From Anaerolineales bacterium (GTDB lineage Bacteria > Chloroflexota > Anaerolineae > Anaerolineales > E44-bin32): 47,899 nt of DNA. Position numbers and translations under genes: made by a program. The notes beneath the pieces were generated by a model. It was not told the origin of the DNA, searched no databases, and saw only the letters and a program-made list of their open reading frames with translations. The stretch lies in NCBI GenBank assembly GCA_004376895.1, contig SOIH01000035.1, positions 1 through 47,899 of the forward strand, read 5' to 3'. Shown here one piece after another: positions 5,204-20,881 of this stretch (the first letter of the stretch is position 1; each line of letters starts with the position of its first letter).

Positions 5204-6895
5204 ATGAAAGAGCGACCCTGGTTTAAGCACTATGAATCTGAAGTTCCGAAGTCCATTGAGTACCAAGAAGTGCCGCTCTATCATTTTTTAGAGAATGCTG
5301 CTGTAAAGTATCCTGATCAGGCTTGCGCGATATTTAAGGGTTCGGTGATTACCTATGCCGAGATGGACGAATTAGCTAATCGTCTTGCTGGCGCACTTGC
5401 TGCTATGGGCGTAAAAAAAGGAACACCAGTCGGCATCTTCATGCCCAACTCGCCGCAGTTCGTTATGGCATTCTACGCGATACTCAAAGCGGGTGGTATT
5501 GTCGTCGCAACGAATCCCCTCTACACCGCGCGTGAGATTGAACATCAGATGAAAGATTCGGGAACGGAGATCATGCTCGTCATGAGCAACTTCTATCCCA
5601 TGATCAAAGAGGTTCAACCGAATACTCCCATTAAGAAGTTGATCGTCACGAACATTAAAGAATATCTGCCCGGGCTGCTCCGATTCCTTTTCACTCTGAC
5701 CAAGGAGAAAAAAGACGGGCATCGAGTTGAATTGGGGGAAGGGGATTTGTGGCTGCAGGACATCCTTAAGGAATACTCACCCTCTGACCGACCGCAGATA
5801 ACAATTGGACAAAATGATGACGCTCTCTACCAGTACAGCGGCGGCACGACCGGCATTTCGAAGGCAGCAATCGCGACGCACGGGAACCTCGTCGCGAACA
5901 CGCTCCAGATTAAATCCTGGTTGCCATCCGTCCAGGAGGGAGCCGAGATTGTCTTGATGGCGATCCCGATGTTCCACGTCTATGGCATGGTCGCCGGCAT
6001 GAGCTTCGGCATCGCTGCCGCCTCCAGCCTAGTGATGGTCCCAAACCCGCGGGATATGGGAGATGTCCTCGGTTCGATCTCCAAGTATCGTCCGACGATT
6101 TACCCCGGTGTTCCGGCGATGTACAACGCGATCAACAATCACCCCGACGTGAAGGCGGGCAAAGTGGACGTAAGCTCGATCAAGGCGTGCATCTCCGGTT
6201 CCGCCCCGCTCATGAGAGAGACGCAGACCACCTTTGAAGAACTGACGGGAGGGAGGCTCGTTGAAGGCTATGGTCTTTCCGAGGCCCCAACAGCGACTCA
6301 CTGCAACCCGGTGTTCGGCATGAGCAAAGAGGGATCGATCGGCATCCCCTTCCCGGATGTGGACGCCCGCATCATCTCTCTGGATGATGAAGTTACTGTG
6401 CTTGAAACAGGCGAGATCGGGGAGCTAGTGATGAAGGGCCCCCAGGTAATGAAGGGCTATCTAAATATGCCCACGGAGACGACAAACGCATTACGAGACG
6501 GCTGGCTCTACACCGGCGACATCGCCTATATGGACGAGGATGGCTATTTCTTTATTGTGGATCGTAAGAAGGAGCTCATCAAGCCCAGCGGTTACCAGGT
6601 TTGGCCCAGGGAAGTAGAGGAGGTCATCGCCGAGAATCCCAAGGTCCTGGAAGTCGGAGTCGCCGGCATCCCCGATGCTTATCGTGGAGAGACCGTAAAA
6701 GCGTGGGTGGTTCTCAAGCCGGGTGAAACGCTGACTGTCGACGAAGTAAAAGCGTGGTGCAAAGAGCACATGGCTGCTTTTAAAGTTCCCACACACGTGG
6801 AATTCCGGGACGAACTGCCCAAGACAACCATCGGAAAGGTTCTGCGGCGGGAGCTCGTGCGTCAAGATCGCGAGAAGCAGGGGGCGGAAGAGTAA
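5204..6895 (+). CDS. Long-chain fatty acid--CoA ligase (AMP-binding ANL family)
   Basis: YQYSGGTTGISKAAIATH, GYGLSEAPTATHCNP, GWLYTGDIAYMDEDGYFFIVDRKKELIKPSGYQVWPREVEE, C-term PKTTIGKVLRREL. Confidence 0.94.
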   Translation: MKERPWFKHYESEVPKSIEYQEVPLYHFLENAAVKYPDQACAIFKGSVITYAEMDELANRLAGALAAMGVKKGTPVGIFMPNSPQFVMAFYAILKAGGIVVATNPLYTAREIEHQMKDSGTEIMLVMSNFYPMIKEVQPNTPIKKLIVTNIKEYLPGLLRFLFTLTKEKKDGHRVELGEGDLWLQDILKEYSPSDRPQITIGQNDDALYQYSGGTTGISKAAIATHGNLVANTLQIKSWLPSVQEGAEIVLMAIPMFHVYGMVAGMSFGIAAASSLVMVPNPRDMGDVLGSISKYRPTIYPGVPAMYNAINNHPDVKAGKVDVSSIKACISGSAPLMRETQTTFEELTGGRLVEGYGLSEAPTATHCNPVFGMSKEGSIGIPFPDVDARIISLDDEVTVLETGEIGELVMKGPQVMKGYLNMPTETTNALRDGWLYTGDIAYMDEDGYFFIVDRKKELIKPSGYQVWPREVEEVIAENPKVLEVGVAGIPDAYRGETVKAWVVLKPGETLTVDEVKAWCKEHMAAFKVPTHVEFRDELPKTTIGKVLRRELVRQDREKQGAEE

Positions 6896-6933
6896 AGTAA
6901 ACAACCGGCTTCTAGTTGGAGGCCAGAATGCGA

Positions 6934-6962
6934 AACGCCCGGGCAATCATAGCCCGGGCGTT
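6934..6962. terminator. Bidirectional terminator hairpin between convergent acyl-CoA ligase and ftsH
   Basis: AACGCCCGGGC-AATCATA-GCCCGGGCGTT, perfect 11-bp arms. Confidence 0.75.
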
Positions 6963-6985
6963 GGTTATGTAAGAGATTAGAAATT

Positions 6986-8848
6986 TCACGCACCCGCAAG
7001 GAGAGGGGTTCCGCTATTTTTCTCCTTAACGGGTTGGCCGAAAATTTTCTCGAAAGTCTCTCGATCGATAGTTTCCTCTTCGACGAGATATTCGGCGATG
7101 GTATCGAGCGAAGTTCGATATTCAGTCAGGATCTCTTTAGCGCGAGCGTAGGCATCTCGGACCAAGCCACGAACCTCGGTATCTATCTTCTCAGCGATAC
7201 GCTCAGAGTAGTCTCGCTGTTCTGAGATCTCTCGACCGAGGAAAACCAACTCCTCCTTTTGCCCATATACCATCGGTCCGAGCTCATCGCTCATCCCGAG
7301 CCGAGTGACCATCGAGCGTGCCATCTTCGTCACCCGTTCGAGATCGCTCGATGCGCCGGAGGTAATATCATTAAAGACCAACTCCTCAGCCGCACGACCA
7401 CCGAGGGCATAGGCCATATCCGCGAGAATCTTGTTGCGGGAAATCAGTGTCCGGTCCTCCTCAGGGAGGGCAAGCGTAAAGCCGCCCATCATTCCCCGAG
7501 CTACGATACTCACTTTATGAACGCGATCTGATTCGGGGATGACGTGGCTTACGACGGCGTGACCCGCTTCGTGGTAGGCGACGATTAATTTCTCTTCCTG
7601 ACTTATGAGACGGCTCTTTCGCTCAGGACCGGCGATAACGCGCTCAATCGATTCTTCGAATTCATTTTGCCCGATTGTCTTTTTGTCTCGACGAGCGGCT
7701 AGGATAGCGGCTTCATTGACGAGATTCTCAATATCGGCGCCGACAAACCCTGGGGTTGCTTTAGCGATAACCGAGAGATCCACGGTCTCCTCGAGGGGCT
7801 TACCTCTTGAGTGGACCTTCAGGATTGCCTCACGTCCGCGCATATCTGGCTGGTCGAGGGTAACCCGACGGTCGAAGCGGCCGGGTCGAAGGAGAGCAGG
7901 GTCAAGGATATCAGGTCTATTCGTCGCGGCCATGACGATCACATTCGTATCCGTATCGAAACCATCCATCTCGACGAGCATCTGGTTGAGTGTTTGCTCT
8001 CGCTCATCATGGCTGCCGCCGAGACCGGCGCCGCGCTGACGGCCTACAGCGTCGATCTCATCGACAAAAACGATGCAGGGGGCGTGGCGCTTTGCTTGAT
8101 CGAAAAGATCGCGCACCCGGCTGGCGCCGACGCCGACGAACATTTCGACGAACTCGGAGCCCGAAATGGAGAAGAAGGGCACACCCGCTTCCCCTGATAC
8201 TGCCTTCGCAAGCAGCGTTTTTCCCGTCCCCGGAGCACCGATTAAAAGCACGCCTTTTGGAATGCGAGCACCAAGTGCAATAAATTTTTCGGGTTCTTGA
8301 AGGAACTCGACAATCTCCTCAAGTTCCTCTTTCGCCTCTTCAATGCCGGCAACATCTTCAAATGTAACGGTGGGCTGGTCGCCGGTAAACATACGCGCGC
8401 GACTCTTCCCAAAGGAGAGTGCCTGGTTATTCGTACCTTGCGCCTGACGCATCATGAACCAGATCAAGCCCACGACAAGCAATGCGGGAAGGATATAGGT
8501 AATCAGGCTGAGAATGGCTCCCAGATCGCTGGGTTCTTTGATCTCGAGCATAAGAAACGGGGGAGCCAAAGATGACTCGGTGACGCCCAGATCTTTTAAC
8601 TGCTCAACCGTCGTCTTTGTAGGTTCCTTGCGAGAGAACGCATTGGTACCATCCCGGTAGATCAATTCCAATTCGTTTTCATCGACTACGATACGGACGA
8701 TTGCGCCGGATTGAATCTTTGCCGCGACCTCGTTAAAAGCTAGTCTTTCAGGTTGGGTCGCCTCGCTGCGGGAGTAGAAAAGAACCGCTACGATTGTGAG
8801 TAACAATATAAAAAGTACGAGAGAGTTTCTGCCTCGGGGTGAATTCAC
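6986..8848 (-). CDS. ftsH: ATP-dependent zinc metalloprotease FtsH
   Basis: N-terminal TM segments, [23 protein letters not shown] Walker [19 protein letters not shown] zinc site, GTG start with GGAGG SD. Confidence 0.97.
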
Positions 8849-8952: not shown

Positions 8953-9990
8953 TTACCCGGGATTAATTGGGCAGGAAGGGTATAGCAGGCATACCCAAAG
9001 CCAGAGAGGGATTAAGCCGCCAATCGTTAGAAAGGCCACTAAACCGAGAGCCACCAAGATCCAATCCATCTCCGATGTTACCGCTGTTTTTTGAAGTGGT
9101 TTGGGCTTTTCCTGTTCGAGATCAGGGTTGTCCAATTCACCATCTGTGGATGAGCGTTCTTCTGGTATCGCATTCAGGTTGAAATTCGTGAGGATCCGTC
9201 CAAGTTGATCTGCGGTGCGATAGCGAGCGGAGGGCTCCTTCGCGAGAACCTTTAAGACAATCTGCTGCAGGGGTTCGGGGATGCTGGCCTCGATCGAACG
9301 AGGAGGTATTGGCTCGGCGGTCAGGTGAAGTTGGGCGAGATCGGCTGCGGTATCCGCTACGAATGGAGGTTGGCCGGTAATCATTTCGTAGAGGATTGCC
9401 CCGAGTGAATAAACATCGCTAGCAGGCGAAGGCGCCCCCCCTGAGGCTTGCTCCGGAGAGAAGTACTGAGGGCTTCCCCAAACAATGTCTGAATGTTCAT
9501 CGGGTTGGATCGTTGCGAGTGCACGTGAGACGCCGAAGTCGGTAATTTTCACCTTATTGTCAGGTGTAACCATGATGTTTTGTGGTTTTAGATCACAGTG
9601 AACGAGTCCTGCTCGGTGTGCATAGCCAACACCGTCAGAGATCTTTTTCATTAGTTCAACAGCTTCGAGCGGGTTCAGGTGTTTCCTGCGGCGGATGAGA
9701 GTCTTTAAATCGGTCCCCGCGATGTATTCCATCACAATGTAAAGCGTTCCCTCGTCACGGCCGAAGTCAAAAATTGTGACAATATTAGGATGGGAGAGAT
9801 TCGCAGCTGCGCGGGCTTCATGCAGGAAGCTCTCTTGGAACGATTGATCCTGGGCAAGCGGATCGCGTAAGATTTTCACTGCAACCTCGCGCTGGAGTTG
9901 GTGGTCTAATGCGCGGTAAATATCTGCCATACCTCCGGAGCCGATTTTTTCAATCAGCCCGTACCGTCCACCCAATAGGTCCTGTGCCAT
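8953..9990 (-). CDS. Serine/threonine protein kinase with C-terminal TM segment
   Basis: GGRYGLIEKIGSGGMADIYRA, VAVKIL, HCDLKPQNIMV, DFGVSRA, SDVYSLGAILYEMITGQPPF; start taken at MAQDLLGG (9990) rather than ORF-track 10128. Confidence 0.92.
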   Translation of the reverse strand: MAQDLLGGRYGLIEKIGSGGMADIYRALDHQLQREVAVKILRDPLAQDQSFQESFLHEARAAANLSHPNIVTIFDFGRDEGTLYIVMEYIAGTDLKTLIRRRKHLNPLEAVELMKKISDGVGYAHRAGLVHCDLKPQNIMVTPDNKVKITDFGVSRALATIQPDEHSDIVWGSPQYFSPEQASGGAPSPASDVYSLGAILYEMITGQPPFVADTAADLAQLHLTAEPIPPRSIEASIPEPLQQIVLKVLAKEPSARYRTADQLGRILTNFNLNAIPEERSSTDGELDNPDLEQEKPKPLQKTAVTSEMDWILVALGLVAFLTIGGLIPLWLWVCLLYPSCPINPG

Positions 9991-10175
9991 ATTGCTTACT
10001 TCTCCAAGTGCCCCGCCTGCCTGAACTGGATGGCATCTATTTGGGCACAGTCGACGTCCGGGATTCGACCCAAATAAATCAAAGGGGCACGACCATTCGA
10101 TTGTAATCCTTACAAGTATTCGCGGCAATGAAGGAGAGAATAATAATCGGCGCTATAATGGACCGGAGTAATCTT

Positions 10176-11132
10176 ATGACAAACCGATGTGCTTGGCTGC
10201 TCTATAACCCTGCTGCTGGTAGGTTTCCCGCTGGCCCGCTTCTTGAGCGCGCGCTGCGCGTTCTCTCGGCTGCGGGTTGGGATGCACAGATCGTAACAGG
10301 GGAGCCGAAGAAAGGGCTGACCGAAGTCGCAAAGGAGGCTGTTGCGCAGCGCTGTGATGCTGTATTTGTAGTCGGTGGTGATGGCTCTGTCGGTCAGGCT
10401 GCATCCGCGCTTGCGGGGTCGGAAACCGCCCTGGGGGTTCTACCGGCGGGAACTGCAAATGTATGGGCGCAGGAACTCGGTCTTCCTCGTCTTGATTGGA
10501 TTCACGTCTTTGCGCTGGAGCAGGCGGCTGAGAGATTAGCCGCTGGAGATGTCCGTCTCGTGGACGTCGGAGAGTGCAACGGTCAGGCATTCCTGCTATG
10601 GGCTGGTGTCGGGCTAGATGCTAATGTTGTTAACAGCATCGAACCACGGGAGCGCTGGGAGAAGGCGTTTGCACCAGTCCATTACGCAACACTGGCTTTG
10701 TGGAATACTATCGGGTGGGAAGGGGTGGACATAAAGGTTCGGACAGACGAGGATGAATTTGAGGGACGTTATCTGGTTGCTGTCGCTTCCAATATTCCTG
10801 CATATGCCGGTGGTTTGGTGGACTTAGCACCGGGTGCCAAGGTTGACGACGGCTTGCTGGATTTCTGGTTCATTGAGAGTGGAAAACTTCGCGATGTCCT
10901 TGTGCGGGTGGCACAGATTTTCATGGGTCGTCATGTGGATGCAGAAGGAGTATACAACTTTCAAGCTAGCGAAGCGGTCTTTGAATTGGAGGATGGTCTG
11001 CCTATGCAGTGTGACGGCGAACCAAAAGTTCTCGACTCTCCCCTTGAGTTCAGCGTTCAAAAGAAAGCTCTCAAAGTTCTCGTCCCAAGCGATGTAGATC
11101 CCGATCTCTTTGCCAGTATATCCGATGAATGA
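10176..11132 (+). CDS. Diacylglycerol kinase/LCB5 family lipid kinase
   Basis: YNPAAGRFP, VVGGDGSVGQAASAL, GVLPAGTANVWAQELGLP; ATG at 10176 preceded by GGAG (ORF track starts 10128). Confidence 0.88.
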   Translation: MTNRCAWLLYNPAAGRFPAGPLLERALRVLSAAGWDAQIVTGEPKKGLTEVAKEAVAQRCDAVFVVGGDGSVGQAASALAGSETALGVLPAGTANVWAQELGLPRLDWIHVFALEQAAERLAAGDVRLVDVGECNGQAFLLWAGVGLDANVVNSIEPRERWEKAFAPVHYATLALWNTIGWEGVDIKVRTDEDEFEGRYLVAVASNIPAYAGGLVDLAPGAKVDDGLLDFWFIESGKLRDVLVRVAQIFMGRHVDAEGVYNFQASEAVFELEDGLPMQCDGEPKVLDSPLEFSVQKKALKVLVPSDVDPDLFASISDE

Positions 11133-14136: not shown

Positions 14137-14790
14137 TTAAAGGTAGTCTTTCAAATTATGCTCAACGGCATAGGCTGCAGCTTCCGCCCGGTTTCGGACA
14201 TTTAGTTTAGAAAGGATGCTGCTGACGTAATTTCGAACTGTTCCCTCTCCAAGAAAGAGCATCTCGGCGATCTGACGATTTGTCCTCCCCTCGGAGACAA
14301 GCTGCAATACGTGCATCTCTTGCTGGGTGAGTTCTGCAAAAGCCGATGCTTCCTCCTCACGCGCTGCTTTCCGGACTTCCTGGAACACTCTCTGAGTAAC
14401 GGCTGGATCGAGTAAAGCTTCACCTCGTCCAATCGCCTCGATCGCTCTAACAAGATCGTCCCCACCAATCTGCTTTAAGACATAACCAGCAGCCCCTGCA
14501 CGGATGGCTGAGAAGAGCATCTCGTCCTCGGCATAGGATGTGAGCATGATGACTTTGGTATCGGGGTGGTTTTCTGTGATGTCCTGACAGGCTTCGATAC
14601 CAGAGCCACCCTTCAAGCGAATATCCATCACGACGACATCCGGCTTGTACGATTTCGTTTTTTCGATTGCATCACGAGGGCCAACCGCTTCAGCGACCAC
14701 CTCGAAGCTTGGATGTTTCTCAAGCAGCGCTTTCAAACCTAAACGGACAACTTCGTGATCGTCTACCAAGAGTATGCGTTGACGGGCCAA
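14137..14790 (-). CDS. NarL/LuxR-family response regulator
   Basis: [34 protein letters not shown]-terminal [46 protein letters not shown]. Confidence 0.95.
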
Positions 14791-15030: not shown

Positions 15031-15768
15031 TCAGGAGTTCTCGCGATTAACCAAGTCGCGCTTGTAATCGACAAATCGGTAGCCTACTCCACGTTCGGTG
15101 ATGAAGTATTCAGGATTCGATGGGTCGAGTTCGAGCTTCTGGCGTAAATAATTTATATACAGACGGAGGTAATGCGTTTCATCACGGTACTCATAGCCCC
15201 AGACTTTGGCAAGCAGCTGCTCATGGGGGACAACGTATCCTGCATTCTTCACAAGATGGTATAGAAGGCGAAATTCAGTCGGGCGGAGTTTAACGAGCTC
15301 ATCGTCTACCCAAATCTCACGGCGGTCGAAGTCGATCTTGAGCCGGTTATCTACCTGGATGACATCGTGAACAGGTTGCCCGACCATTTCGGTGCGGCGC
15401 AAAACAGCTCGCACACGACTTACCAACTCACGCGGGCTGAAAGGTTTGGTTATGTAATCATCGGCGCCAAGCTCCAAACCTCGTACACGATCTTCCTCCT
15501 CACCCTTAGCGGTGAGCATAATTACAGGCACTGTGGAGATATCCCGAATAAGTCGCAGCGTTTCGAAGCCATCAAGGTCCGGCATCATCACATCTAATAG
15601 AATCAGGTCCGGCAACAGATCTCGCATCTGGTCTAGCGCCTGAGTCCCCGAAGTGGCTTCGTAGACTTCGAAGCCATCATGCTCAAGATTCAAACGGATG
15701 AAGTGAATCATCCGCGGTTCATCGTCGACAACAAGAATCTTGCGTCGGCGAGGTGAGGATTCCGTCAT
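15031..15768 (-). CDS. OmpR/PhoB-family winged-helix response regulator
   Basis: [73 protein letters not shown]; start at MTESSPRRR (15768), not ORF-track 15981. Confidence 0.94.
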
Positions 15769-15769
15769 T

Positions 15770-16012
15770 TTATTCCCGGACGAAACCGATGAGGTCTTCG
15801 TCTTCTTTGGTGGGGAGGATCTCGATGAAAAAGATTCGATGCATCGGCCACACGACGCTAGTGACAGTCTCGTGTAAAAAGGATAAATCTTTGTCATCCT
15901 TGCGTCGGGGATTATTAACTGTAAGCGACGTATCTTGCGGTCCTGGCAAATCCTCGATCTCACCAAGAACCGCTTCCTCACCAGATATATGGAGCAGAAT
16001 TGTATAAGACAT
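15770..16012 (-). CDS. 80-aa protein of unknown function within the STK/PP2C/FHA operon
   Basis: [23 protein letters not shown]...; fits exactly between FHA gene and response regulator with 1-3 bp gaps. Confidence 0.7.
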
Positions 16013-16015
16013 AGG

Positions 16016-16540
16016 CTACCTTGACCCTTTTGTCTGCTGCGATATGATTTGCAGTCTTAAGCGACCCAGCTGGATAATATCACCATGATAAATTGGCGAA
16101 GTCACTTGCCCCTTGATGCGCTTACCGTTCACGATTGTCCCATTTGCACTGTCTAGATCAATCACGAATACTCCATCTTTCTCAACCCTCAGTTCGGCGT
16201 GCATTCTAGAGATACCCTGATCATAGGCGTCGAATTTTGCCAGGTCGACATCAGGAATGACCGCTTGGCCTTCAATCGATCGGCCTAGTGTGAAATTGTC
16301 CCGCCCGAGTAGGGAGATGACGTCACCCGAGGAAACAACGCGTAACCCCAACAGCGAACCGGTCGAGAGGTCGGGTCCTGCTGGAGGAGATGGTTTGGTC
16401 GCATTTGCTTCCTTGCTGATTTTGTCGGGTGATATTGACATCGTTGGGATTGGGGAAGCGTGGACCAGTCGAGTACCGCACTCGCTGCAGAACAGGGTGC
16501 CGACGAATTCGTGGTGATTACATGATGGGCATTCGATCAT
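16016..16540 (-). CDS. Zinc-ribbon + FHA domain protein
   Basis: [22 protein letters not shown] zinc ribbon; [10 protein letters not shown]...[39 protein letters not shown]. Confidence 0.92.
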
Positions 16541-18015
16541 GACTCACTCAAAGGTGGAAGTAATAGTAAAGCTCGCGTACCGTATTTTAACGTTTTTTCG
16601 CCTTCTGTCGAGAAGCGCCGGGAGCGGGAGAGTTGAACTGCCTCATTGAGCGCGGCTTTTGCGAGATCGCGTTCGCCTGCAGCGAGAAGTTGTGTGGCCA
16701 GGTTCTCCAATCTCCTTGCGGCTTGTGCTGCTTGACCGAGCTCAACCTCATGGCGCGCTTTTTCCTGCATTTTGTATAAAGCGAGCATATTCAATGCGGA
16801 AGAAATCTCCTGTGGCGGAGGTTGAGGGTCGGCTTCGCTTGAGACCGGCAAGCTGATATCTAAGGGAAGTGTCTTTTTCTCGGAATCTGCAGCAAGCAGG
16901 TCCCCGCTGAGGTTGAGGTGAGCAAGCGGGATCTCGCTTGCGCCCGCAAGTGGATGGACAACAAGTTCTAGCAGAAGGCGGACCGAACCATGCCTCGGGA
17001 GATGACCAAGTGTCATTGGGAAGCTGTCACCGAGCGGCATTGGCTCAGGAAGGAGACGATAAGTCGAACGCAAATCAACCTGCTGACCTAGCGATCCATC
17101 GATTTGTAAATTTTTGACGACGATCTGGCTCAAGTTGTCGTAAATTGAATGCAGCAAGTCTGTTACAGCCCGTGGGGTGTTTAAAAAAATGACATGTCCA
17201 CCTGTTCGACTTGCGATTTCGTCTAACAGACGATCACTCCAATCGGAGCCGATTCCAACGCAGTTGATGGTGATACCTGCCGCGGCAGCTTGATCTGCAA
17301 GCTCAAGACAGAGCTCTTCATCCCCATATGTTCTCCCGTCTGTGAGAAGGACCAGATGGTTGACGCCCTCATTTGTGAATGTTTGGTGGATCTCATCCAA
17401 GCCAGTCGTCAAGCCTTGGGCGATCTCTGTGCCGCCACCGGCATGCATGAGGCTCAAACGAGCTCGGGCGGTAGCTAAGACTTTGGCCTGATCTGGCGAA
17501 ACAATAACTTCAGCACGATCGCTGAAAGCGGTGACGGAAGTGTTGTCCTCGGGTTGTAGATCTTGAAGGATTGCCAATACCGCCGATCGTACTTGGTCCA
17601 TCCGCTTGCCACTCATCGAGGTTGAACGGTCGATCACGATGCTGAGGTTAATGGGAGGCCTGATCTCCGGTAAATCTTCATTGGGGAAGACATCAAGAAG
17701 GATGTAGTGAACTTGTGGTTCACCGATCTCAAGCAAGCTATTACGGCTGTTGAGAATGTTGCAGTGGAATGGTGAAGCCGCTGCGTAGGCAACATCCGCA
17801 GCGGCTAAATCTTCATCATAAGCTGCGCGTAGATCTGGGTCGATGAGGGTTTCATATGCCTTGCTTACTTCTAGGAAGAGCTCCGTCTCACCAAGCTGGA
17901 TGTTCTTATCCGGGTGGAGTTGGTGGGCGGCTTCGCGAAAGGCGCGTCGGATTTGTTCCGATGTCGCATTCCTTGGCACTTTGAGGAGGGTATAGTAATC
18001 CTTCTCCACTGGCAC
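16537..18015 (-). CDS. DnaJ-domain/von Willebrand factor A fusion protein
   Basis: N-term DYYTLLKVPRNATSEQIRRAFREAAHQLHPDKN (HPD intact) then NLSIVIDRSTSMSGKRMDQVRSAV (MIDAS DxSxS) and LTDGRTYGDE; 4-bp overlap with FHA gene. Confidence 0.92.
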   Translation of the reverse strand: MPVEKDYYTLLKVPRNATSEQIRRAFREAAHQLHPDKNIQLGETELFLEVSKAYETLIDPDLRAAYDEDLAAADVAYAAASPFHCNILNSRNSLLEIGEPQVHYILLDVFPNEDLPEIRPPINLSIVIDRSTSMSGKRMDQVRSAVLAILQDLQPEDNTSVTAFSDRAEVIVSPDQAKVLATARARLSLMHAGGGTEIAQGLTTGLDEIHQTFTNEGVNHLVLLTDGRTYGDEELCLELADQAAAAGITINCVGIGSDWSDRLLDEIASRTGGHVIFLNTPRAVTDLLHSIYDNLSQIVVKNLQIDGSLGQQVDLRSTYRLLPEPMPLGDSFPMTLGHLPRHGSVRLLLELVVHPLAGASEIPLAHLNLSGDLLAADSEKKTLPLDISLPVSSEADPQPPPQEISSALNMLALYKMQEKARHEVELGQAAQAARRLENLATQLLAAGERDLAKAALNEAVQLSRSRRFSTEGEKTLKYGTRALLLLPPLSES

Positions 18016-18024
18016 CTTGTTCCT

Positions 18025-18918
18025 CTAATCAGATGGAAAACGAACGATAACAACGGAGATGTTATCGGGACCACCGGCGAAGTTCGCGGCTTGGACGAGT
18101 TGCTCGCAGGCGATTTGTGGATGAGGTGCATCGTTCACGACATGCTTAATCTGGGGATCGGGTACCACGCCCCAAAGACCATCCGAGCAGAGAAGTAGAT
18201 GCCCCCCCTTCGGTGCGGCGGTGGTGAAAACATCAATTTCAAGATTTGCCCCCTGACCGATTGCACGGTACAGAACATTTCGTTGGGGATGCGATTCGGC
18301 TTCCTCAGCGGTGAGCTGACCGAGTTCCTTGAGGCGCTCAACCAACGAGTGATCCCTAGTTAGGATTTCGATTTGACCATCATTGATGGCGTAGGCGCGG
18401 CTGTCACCGACATGCCCGATCGTCAATTTTGATCCAAGCAGCAACGCCGCAGTCATTGTCGTTCCACCTCCGGGAACTTGTTCCACAACAGCGGAGTTCG
18501 CTTCCTCCAAAGCAGTATGTAGGAGTTCTTGTAGCGGGAGCATCTCGGTAGAGTTATCTAAATCGAGCATATGAAGGACTGTCTCTTCCATCAATTTTCG
18601 AGCAACGGAGCGAATGGAAACGTTGCTGGCGACCTCTCCGGCTCGATGTCCGCCCATCCCGTCAGCAACCATGAACAGGCCGAACTCAGGAAGCGGTTCA
18701 GCCCCGGCAGAATCCCCTTTGATGACCAGTTGTGCATCCTCATTATGACTTCGCTCGAGGCCAGCTGACTGGCTTGCACCAACGATGATTCGATCGTCGG
18801 GAGCGGAGCTATAAGCGCGGCTCCCCGCGGATCCTTTACCGGTCATCCGGAAGCCGGTTCCAGTCTGAGGGGGAGATGAGCCAAAAAGGCGGGAAAATAA
18901 AGTTTTCAAAAAGGTCAT
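18025..18918 (-). CDS. PP2C-family Ser/Thr protein phosphatase
   Basis: GLERSHNEDAQLV, LFMVADGMGGHRAGEVAS, GHVGDSRAYAI, LLCSDGLWGVV, GGPDNISVVIV. Confidence 0.95.
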   Translation of the reverse strand: MTFLKTLFSRLFGSSPPQTGTGFRMTGKGSAGSRAYSSAPDDRIIVGASQSAGLERSHNEDAQLVIKGDSAGAEPLPEFGLFMVADGMGGHRAGEVASNVSIRSVARKLMEETVLHMLDLDNSTEMLPLQELLHTALEEANSAVVEQVPGGGTTMTAALLLGSKLTIGHVGDSRAYAINDGQIEILTRDHSLVERLKELGQLTAEEAESHPQRNVLYRAIGQGANLEIDVFTTAAPKGGHLLLCSDGLWGVVPDPQIKHVVNDAPHPQIACEQLVQAANFAGGPDNISVVIVRFPSD

Positions 18919-18953
18919 TTATTGATATCTCATTGAAGTTTCTATTAGGTTAC

Positions 18954-20837
18954 CTACGCGATTAGAGCGTACATCTTGTGATCAGTTGAACCGATGTAAA
19001 TGACGTTATCGGAGATAAAGGGTGTTCCTGTGATTGGCCCGTCTGAATGAAACCGCCAGCGGAGCCGGCCTGTCTTATGATCCAGGCAGTATACGGAGCC
19101 GTCGACTGATCCGCAATAGATTGATCCATCATGTGCAACCGGCGAGCCTGTAACCTGGTGATCCGTTTCGTAGCGCCAAATCTCACGTGCGTGCTTTGCA
19201 TCAACGCAGTAGATATGATTATCCCCGCAACCTATGAAAAGCAGGCCATCGGAGAAGGTTGGGGATGAGATTGTTGCTCCCCGCATTCGAAAACGCCAAA
19301 TCTGCCAGCCGTTTTCTGAATCAATTGCATACATGGTCCAATCCCGAGATCCATAGTAGACAATTTCATCAACGATGATTGCAGAGGATGTGATGCCTCT
19401 CTTCGCTTTCTTTCTCCACTTCAACTCCCCTTTAAAGTTATAGCAGTAGAAATCGCCGCTCTCACAACCGAAATAGACGAGTTCATCTTGGACAAATGGT
19501 GTGGACCAGATCGCATCGTTCGCTTCAACGCGCCATGCACGGCGGCCATTCACCTGGTTTACTACATGAAGCTGTCTGTCATCGGAGCCGACGAAAATAT
19601 GCCCTTCAGATAGGGTGGGAGAGGAGCGGATTGGACCTTCAGCGTAATACGTCCAGACCAGACTACCCCGATTTGTGGTCAGTGCGTAGAGACGACCATC
19701 CTCGGAGCCAATGAAGATGACTCCATCCTCGGCTGCGGGCCGTCCGGTGATGCCGCCCTCCGTGGCATATTTCCATTGGAATTCGCCTGTCTGTTTATCT
19801 AATGCATAAAGGTTATTGTCATAGCAGCCCAGATAGACTGAACCCTCGTAGACTATAGGGGAGCCGCGAATCTCATCCTCGCATTTAAAAGACCATATCT
19901 CCTTGACCTTATCGCTCTGAGCGATCACTGCGGCGATGCTGGGCTGGCTCAGCAGACCGGTGCGCTTTGCGGCTGAGATCAAGGCTTCCTTCATGATCAT
20001 GGCGGATGGGTAGCGATCCTTGGGATCATACGCGATGGCAGTAGAGATCACGGCCTCTATTTCAGGTGAGATAAGGGGATTGATCGACCGCGCCGGTCTC
20101 TCAGCGAAAGAAAATGGCGCTTCAACGCGCGGATCTCGTTTTGTGAGAAGGTGGTGCAGCGTTGCTCCGAGGGCGTAGACGTCACCAGCTGGAGAGGCTT
20201 CACCGCGGTATTGCTCTGGTGGTGAGTATCCCTCGGTGCCGATCATCGTCCCTTTTTCACCGGGTTGAAAATTGCGGGCGATGCCGAAATCGATCAAACG
20301 CACATGGCTGTGGTGATCGATCATTACATTCGAAGGTTTAATATCTCGGAAGATGATCGGTTCGGGCTGGATATTGTGTAAATATGAGAGAACATCGCAG
20401 AGTTCGATCGCCCAACCGATGACTTGATCCTCCGGCAAGAAGTCGTTGGTTTCGGCAAGAATCGCTTCGAGATCATCACCGTCGATAAATTCCATAACCA
20501 GGTAGGACCGTCTCTTATGTGAGAAGTTATCGTAGATTGCGGGAGCTGCCGGGTGGGAGAGGGTCGCGAGAAGATCAGCCTCACGCTCAAAATTTTTCAC
20601 TACCATTTCATGCAACGATTTATCGGCGATAAGGTTCACCATCTCTTTTATGGCGACAAGCTTGGTTACGTTGGGGAAATGAAGGTCGCGCCCTTTGTAC
20701 ACAGAACTCATCCCGCCGGCGCCCAGCATACCCAGGATAAGATATCGATCTTCGAGTGTAGTGCCCGGCTGTAAACGGTCTAGGCCATCGCCCTCGCCTT
20801 GGTCGTTTTCCCCGAGCTGACGTGTTGTTCTTGGCAT
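18954..20837 (-). CDS. Ser/Thr protein kinase with C-terminal PQQ-type beta-propeller repeats
   Basis: GAGGMSSVYKGRDL, VAIKEM, FRDIKPSNVMID, DFGIARNF; then ~7 repeats such as VYLGCYDNNLYALDKQTGEFQWKYATEGGITGRPA. Confidence 0.94.
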   Translation of the reverse strand: MPRTTRQLGENDQGEGDGLDRLQPGTTLEDRYLILGMLGAGGMSSVYKGRDLHFPNVTKLVAIKEMVNLIADKSLHEMVVKNFEREADLLATLSHPAAPAIYDNFSHKRRSYLVMEFIDGDDLEAILAETNDFLPEDQVIGWAIELCDVLSYLHNIQPEPIIFRDIKPSNVMIDHHSHVRLIDFGIARNFQPGEKGTMIGTEGYSPPEQYRGEASPAGDVYALGATLHHLLTKRDPRVEAPFSFAERPARSINPLISPEIEAVISTAIAYDPKDRYPSAMIMKEALISAAKRTGLLSQPSIAAVIAQSDKVKEIWSFKCEDEIRGSPIVYEGSVYLGCYDNNLYALDKQTGEFQWKYATEGGITGRPAAEDGVIFIGSEDGRLYALTTNRGSLVWTYYAEGPIRSSPTLSEGHIFVGSDDRQLHVVNQVNGRRAWRVEANDAIWSTPFVQDELVYFGCESGDFYCYNFKGELKWRKKAKRGITSSAIIVDEIVYYGSRDWTMYAIDSENGWQIWRFRMRGATISSPTFSDGLLFIGCGDNHIYCVDAKHAREIWRYETDHQVTGSPVAHDGSIYCGSVDGSVYCLDHKTGRLRWRFHSDGPITGTPFISDNVIYIGSTDHKMYALIA

Positions 20838-20853
20838 AATTTATATGTTTCGG

Positions 20854-20881
20854 ATTATAGCATGAGAGACATGCGCCGCAA
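20854..20881 (-). promoter_or_regulatory. Candidate sigma70-type promoter for the kinase/phosphatase/FHA operon
   Basis: On minus strand TTGCGG - 16 bp - TATAAT, ~17 bp upstream of kinase start codon. Confidence 0.5.

Follow-up and report, generated by a model that had tools for sequence, protein, structure and literature searches.

A conserved Anaerolineae operon encoding a putative cytosolic Ser/Thr phospho-switch with an ArnA/ArnB-like protein pair

Do a Ser/Thr kinase, a phosphatase, a phospho-threonine reader and a transcription factor that are encoded side by side in an Anaerolineales genome form one signalling system, and what would that system act on? The genes in question lie on contig SOIH01000035.1 of the metagenome-assembled genome GCA_004376895.1 (order Anaerolineales, class Anaerolineae, phylum Chloroflexota; 2.96 Mb, 299 contigs, 87.5% complete), and the window analysed here is this entire contig of 47,899 nt. 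Six open reading frames on the minus strand span positions 15031–20837, in which Pfam recognised a kinase with a PQQ propeller, a PP2C phosphatase, a J domain with a vWA domain, an FHA domain and an OmpR-type regulator. We consider it moderately likely that they encode a cytosolic write/erase/read phospho-switch that operates on a threonine in the C-terminal helix bundle of the vWA protein and that is wired, in Anaerolineae, to an orphan regulator. The operon comprises the following features:

20854..20881, minus strand: operon promoter, TTGCGG (20881-20876), 16 nt, TGC-TATAAT (-10 element at 20859-20854)
18954..20837, minus strand: Ser/Thr kinase with a C-terminal PQQ/BamB-like beta-propeller, 627 aa (Pfam, conserved residues)
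18025..18918, minus strand: PP2C-type Ser/Thr phosphatase, 297 aa (Pfam; metal-binding D61, D86, D246 and D285 invariant)
16537..18015, minus strand: protein with J domain, vWA domain, beta-sandwich and C-terminal four-helix bundle, 492 aa (Pfam, AlphaFold; ArnB-like architecture)
16576..16578, minus strand: codon for Thr480, which lies within KYGTRxL on the final helix of the C-terminal bundle of the vWA protein (predicted, by analogy to ArnB, to accept the phosphate and to dock the FHA domain)
16016..16540, minus strand: zinc ribbon (C4, C7, C18, C21), linker and FHA domain (G86, S111-R112, N133), 174 aa (Pfam; ArnA-like architecture)
15770..16012, minus strand: 80-aa protein of no Pfam or NCBIfam family, with a conserved NPRxxDxK loop
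15031..15768, minus strand: OmpR-family response regulator, 245 aa (Pfam receiver and winged helix)

The six genes are closely packed, with gaps of 35 nt (kinase to PP2C), 9 nt (PP2C to DnaJ-vWA), 3 nt (FHA to 80-aa) and 1 nt (80-aa to OmpR) and a 4-nt overlap of the DnaJ-vWA and FHA genes; median spacings across the compared loci, in the same gene order, are 33, 11, -4, 12 and 1 nt. The promoter is real, as judged by its conservation: the block from TTGCGG to TGCTATAAT is retained among congeners, 35 of 38 loci of the order have TATAAT in the 250 nt ahead of the kinase gene, and the stronger form TGnTATAAT is found there in 20 of the 38, against 0.15 expected from shuffled sequences. TATAAT is rare ahead of the later genes (PP2C, 2/37; vWA, 1/39; FHA, 0/40; 80-aa, 2/40; OmpR, 0/40). 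A generic sigma-70 scan omits the promoter because its -35 hexamer agrees with the consensus at only three of six positions. Gene spacings and promoter thus read exactly as the first-pass annotation had described them, and its proposal that the six genes form a single transcription unit is supported, with one conserved promoter in front. A hairpin at 14040-14021 was considered as the downstream terminator and rejected, as such sites are no commoner than expected by chance and the hairpin was not seen in the compared congeners.

The gene arrangement is conserved to an extent that far exceeds chance. The order kinase-PQQ, PP2C, J-vWA, zinc-ribbon-FHA, 80-aa and OmpR, all on one strand, was recovered at 40 loci, drawn from many families within the order, as far as contigs permitted, and the rare breaks trace to contig ends, gene calls and insertions. 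Loci of the class outside the order hold the five genes from kinase to 80-aa protein in the same order in 20 of 20 cases, with the OmpR gene present in 17, and 11 loci from other classes of the phylum carry the complete five-gene core with the OmpR gene absent. The class and phylum surveys were anchored on the 80-aa protein and so cover those loci that have its gene. Conserved synteny in relatives, which the first-pass annotation had named as the main point on which its reading could fail, was therefore found at all three levels. A polyprenyl synthetase/IDI block lies upstream of the operon only inside its own family and flanks vary elsewhere; gene order is kept while the flanking block changes, hence the operon is not just a piece of frozen chromosome. 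Flanking genes offered no clue to function, showing no conservation past the own family. As part of the reading preferred here, and at the same moderate likelihood, the operon was probably inherited vertically. In one family of the order, two loci (L042, oriented positions 9745-10968; L044, oriented positions 6225-7448; family f5) have a second Ser/Thr kinase gene inserted between the zinc-ribbon-FHA and 80-aa genes.

Residue conservation, counted over 38–41 sequences per protein, shows that catalytic, metal-ion-dependent adhesion site (MIDAS), HPD, zinc, FHA and receiver residues are invariant or nearly so. In the kinase (domain residues 35-283; propeller about 307-627), K64, F163-R164-D165, N170 and D183-F-G are conserved, FRD replacing HRD in all 39 sequences. 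The write/erase/read set claimed at first pass is thus complete, with kinase, PP2C and FHA protein all present with intact active sites. No operon protein has a membrane-spanning hydrophobic segment; for the kinase, the highest 19-residue hydropathy is 1.01. The suggestion that the propeller senses an extracytoplasmic cue was rejected because transmembrane segments are absent.

In architecture, the vWA and zinc-ribbon-FHA proteins match ArnB and ArnA, respectively, of the archaellum regulatory network of Sulfolobus, a correspondence that the first-pass annotation had missed. The AlphaFold model of the vWA protein (predicted local distance difference test score, pLDDT, 90) places a vWA domain, a beta-sandwich and a four-helix bundle after the J domain, and Foldseek aligned it over the full target to ArnB of the ArnAB complex (chain 8s05_A; E 3.6e-25, TM-score by target 0.74) and to vWA2 (5a8j; E 8.6e-22). 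Both its HPD motif at 34-36 and its MIDAS residues (D129/S131/S133/T196/D226) are intact. In a profile search with the zinc-ribbon-FHA protein, ArnA was the top solved relative (E 1.1e-13) with both domains aligned, and the cysteine spacing C-x2-C-x10-C-x2-C is shared with ArnA (C21/C24/C35/C38); the zinc ribbon is weak by Pfam in the single window sequence, yet its four cysteines are invariant in 41 of 41 sequences. The genes of the two proteins adjoin in 40 of 40 loci, and their distance matrices show the highest correlation of all operon pairs (r 0.92), values to which shared phylogeny contributes throughout.

In Sulfolobus, the helix bundle of ArnB is phosphorylated by kinases; the zinc ribbon of ArnA holds ArnB in its unphosphorylated state, the FHA domain binds the bundle once it is phosphorylated (PMC6509490; PMC12852372), and PP2A reverses the phosphorylation (PMC7472852). 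The corresponding bundle here contains two well-conserved threonines, T441 and T480. Thr480 is a threonine in 39 of 41 sequences of the order, and the Thr-Arg of KYGTRxL is retained throughout the loci of other classes. Direct evidence for the operon, its promoter, its conservation, the intact residues, the lack of transmembrane segments and the folds is strong; the direction of phosphorylation, complex formation, the signal and the output we infer as follows. The kinase would phosphorylate a threonine of the C-terminal helix bundle of the vWA protein, with Thr480 (KYGTRxL) and Thr441 as the best candidate acceptors. Before phosphorylation, the zinc ribbon of the FHA protein would hold the vWA protein loosely, as in ArnAB; afterwards, the FHA domain would grip the phospho-threonine to give a tight complex, which the PP2C phosphatase would reset. 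The 80-aa small-barrel protein may be an adaptor or an output partner. In Anaerolineae, the output would be joined to the orphan OmpR regulator through the 80-aa protein and/or by direct phosphorylation of Thr107, as between PrkC and WalR, and the J domain added to the vWA protein would recruit DnaK.

The two systems share the cysteine spacing and the vWA/beta-sandwich/helix-bundle partner, and Ser/Thr kinases and a phosphatase also act on the archaeal pair (PMC6509490; PMC12852372; PMC7472852). Here, a single operon encodes both enzymes along with the pair, the phosphatase is of the PP2C instead of the PP2A type, and the propeller of the kinase, the J domain, the 80-aa barrel and the OmpR regulator are extra. 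The J domain is not part of the core, and the chaperone-scaffold role that had been assigned to the DnaJ-vWA protein does not extend to it: the domain is mostly absent from the vWA protein of the 11 other-class loci, and several lineages inside the class have lost it or retain it without HPD.

Several observations weigh against this phospho-switch or its ArnAB-like form. The best fold match of the vWA model is a Catenulispora vWA protein (4fx5), and conservation of Thr480 could be structural. With the FHA stretch alone, ArnA scores 34.5 bits compared to 47.7 for 3po8, and mycobacterial FHA proteins are closer, so that ArnA owes its top rank to the added zinc ribbon. The ArnB architecture occurs widely, YfbK also being listed (PMC12852372), and common descent with ArnAB as a pair is therefore unproven; that the bacterial pair works like ArnAB is better supported than that it descends from it. 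The OmpR gene is absent from the cassette outside the class, and some lineages hold the 80-aa protein without the vWA and FHA proteins, which may mean that it acts outside the switch.

The regulator is a class-level addition. The circuit was said to end in a two-component-type transcription factor, which holds within the class, where the OmpR gene is tied to the unit, but not in other classes, where it is absent. Its D59 and K108 are invariant (41/41), and its top-scoring models are RpaB, MtrA and YycF/WalR, all under their cut-offs. At one locus (L167, oriented positions 7678-8424), the OmpR gene is split across three frames, by a frameshift, as a pseudogene or through an assembly error. The regulator suggests a different wiring, in which the kinase directly phosphorylates its Thr107, and the vWA, FHA and 80-aa proteins merely tune the kinase. 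In Bacillus subtilis, PrkC phosphorylates Thr101 of WalR (PMC4478028), and that system likewise combines a kinase/PP2C pair with an OmpR-family regulator that has a threonine before the conserved lysine. The WalR Thr101 position is occupied by Thr or Ser in 41 of 41 sequences here (Thr 40, Ser 1), within a peptide near-identical to that of WalR, GADDYVTKPFSTR; no histidine kinase is adjacent to the regulator in the window, and only 1 of 51 loci has one within 1 kb; and the 80-aa and OmpR genes remain paired at two loci (L141, L142) that have lost the other genes. PrkC, however, is a PASTA membrane kinase, and its system is without vWA, FHA and 80-aa proteins. Moreover, Thr or Ser occupies this position in 9 of the 34 response regulators of B. 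subtilis, while WalR is the sole substrate, and since a threonine there is common, Thr107 is a lead only. Because the cassettes of other classes do without the regulator, the kinase is unlikely to have targeted it ancestrally, and we regard a wiring of this kind as unlikely overall.

The first-pass interpretation is right in its main lines, but its TerY-P label is wrong, fitting in one feature only. Kinase, PP2C and vWA genes lie side by side, and according to PMC11090510 the same adjacent set defines TerY-P triads, which would place the operon in stress response or anti-phage defence. The kinase of such triads, in the same text (citing Anantharaman et al. 2012), is fused C-terminally to a zinc ribbon or an oligonucleotide/oligosaccharide-binding (OB) fold, while the C-terminus of the kinase here is a PQQ propeller with neither; it is the FHA protein that carries a zinc ribbon, FHA and 80-aa proteins are added, and of the ter genes TerD was not found in any of 10 cassette-bearing genomes. 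PADLOC returned generic kinase and phosphatase resemblance only, and the single copy, apparently vertical inheritance and stable place within a family are unlike defence islands, which together make this role improbable. Kinase, PP2C and FHA activities are also common to the PpkA/PppA/Fha threonine phosphorylation pathway that controls type VI secretion, and PpkA has a vWA domain (PMC1262709). The kinase architecture differs, as the present kinase is without a transmembrane segment and the vWA domain is on a separate protein, and absence of the apparatus contradicts this reading: the sheath protein VipB was not found in the 10 cassette-bearing genomes, with the E. coli control positive. We regard such a secretion pathway as the most remote of these readings. 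That the genes are unrelated and merely under a common promoter is very unlikely as well, as their order holds across many families and in several classes against changing flanks, and partial losses take the vWA and FHA genes together. A further likeness is to AfsK/AfsR of Streptomyces (PMC1262709; NF053615), in which AfsK, a kinase with a C-terminal PQQ propeller, controls a transcription factor. The window kinase scores 234 bits against the AfsK model NF053615, below its cut-off of 1300, and differs in being part of an operon with PP2C, vWA and FHA proteins and a plain OmpR-type regulator instead of AfsR. The cassette as such was not found in the papers searched, a search that covered few subscription journals and not the TerY-P paper of 2012.

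The most constant member of the cassette is the 80-aa protein, an undescribed family that the first-pass annotation had passed over. It was detected in 83 of 101 relatives, 114 of 247 class genomes and 109 of 350 phylum genomes, in single copy wherever found, and it co-occurs genome by genome with a strong DnaJ-vWA match, save for a few genomes that have reduced forms or contig edges. No credible match to Pfam, NCBIfam or PDB profiles, including Sm/LSm, was obtained by sequence. Its predicted fold is an Sm/SH3-like small beta-barrel: the AlphaFold model (pLDDT 88) has five strands and ends in a helix, and the Foldseek matches listed for it are nearly all Sm/LSm proteins (probability 1.00), at modest scores (best E 2.7e-3, TM-score about 0.5-0.7). 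Across reduced loci of the 80-aa-anchored survey, it pairs in turn with each other part: with the kinase (L121, L122, L132, L147), with the FHA protein (L123, L125, L128, L131), with OmpR at the two loci named above, and with kinase, PP2C and OmpR (L138, L139, L144), where vWA and FHA genes are lost together. More tentatively, we consider it possible that the phospho-switch is ancestral or nearly so to Chloroflexota, and that its constant part is this new small beta-barrel family, into which the kinase, the ArnAB-like pair or the regulator is plugged by lineage; the hub that relays phosphorylation state would then be the 80-aa protein instead of the transcription factor. At one locus (L118), the 80-aa gene stands without the cassette, though other genomes of the same family hold the full core. 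In another family of the phylum (f43; L126, L127, L134-L137, L146), the homologue of the 80-aa protein gives a weaker match and is mostly longer; its C-terminal tail often ends in EDLEIDEDFLRRVREA, and the next gene often encodes a protein that starts like topoisomerase I.

Downstream of the operon, one further regulator gene was noted:

14137..14790, minus strand: NarL-type response regulator, 240 nt downstream of the operon

Such a gene follows the operon in about 24 of 40 loci of the order. It is possibly a co-transcribed seventh gene, outside the core, and TATAAT was found ahead of it in none of 23 loci; in three congeners, it is 99-100% identical to the window copy. Elsewhere in the window, a second Ser/Thr kinase gene without a propeller (KIN2; 8953-9987, minus strand) is syntenic in many relatives.

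Little is known of Ser/Thr signalling in Chloroflexota. Because one conserved transcript unites a kinase and a phosphatase with a probable substrate, a reader, a small protein and, in one class, a transcription factor, the partners in this system need not be guessed. The resemblance to ArnAB provides a structural mechanism that can be tested in bacteria, and the family of the 80-aa protein adds a new conserved protein with a clear gene context.

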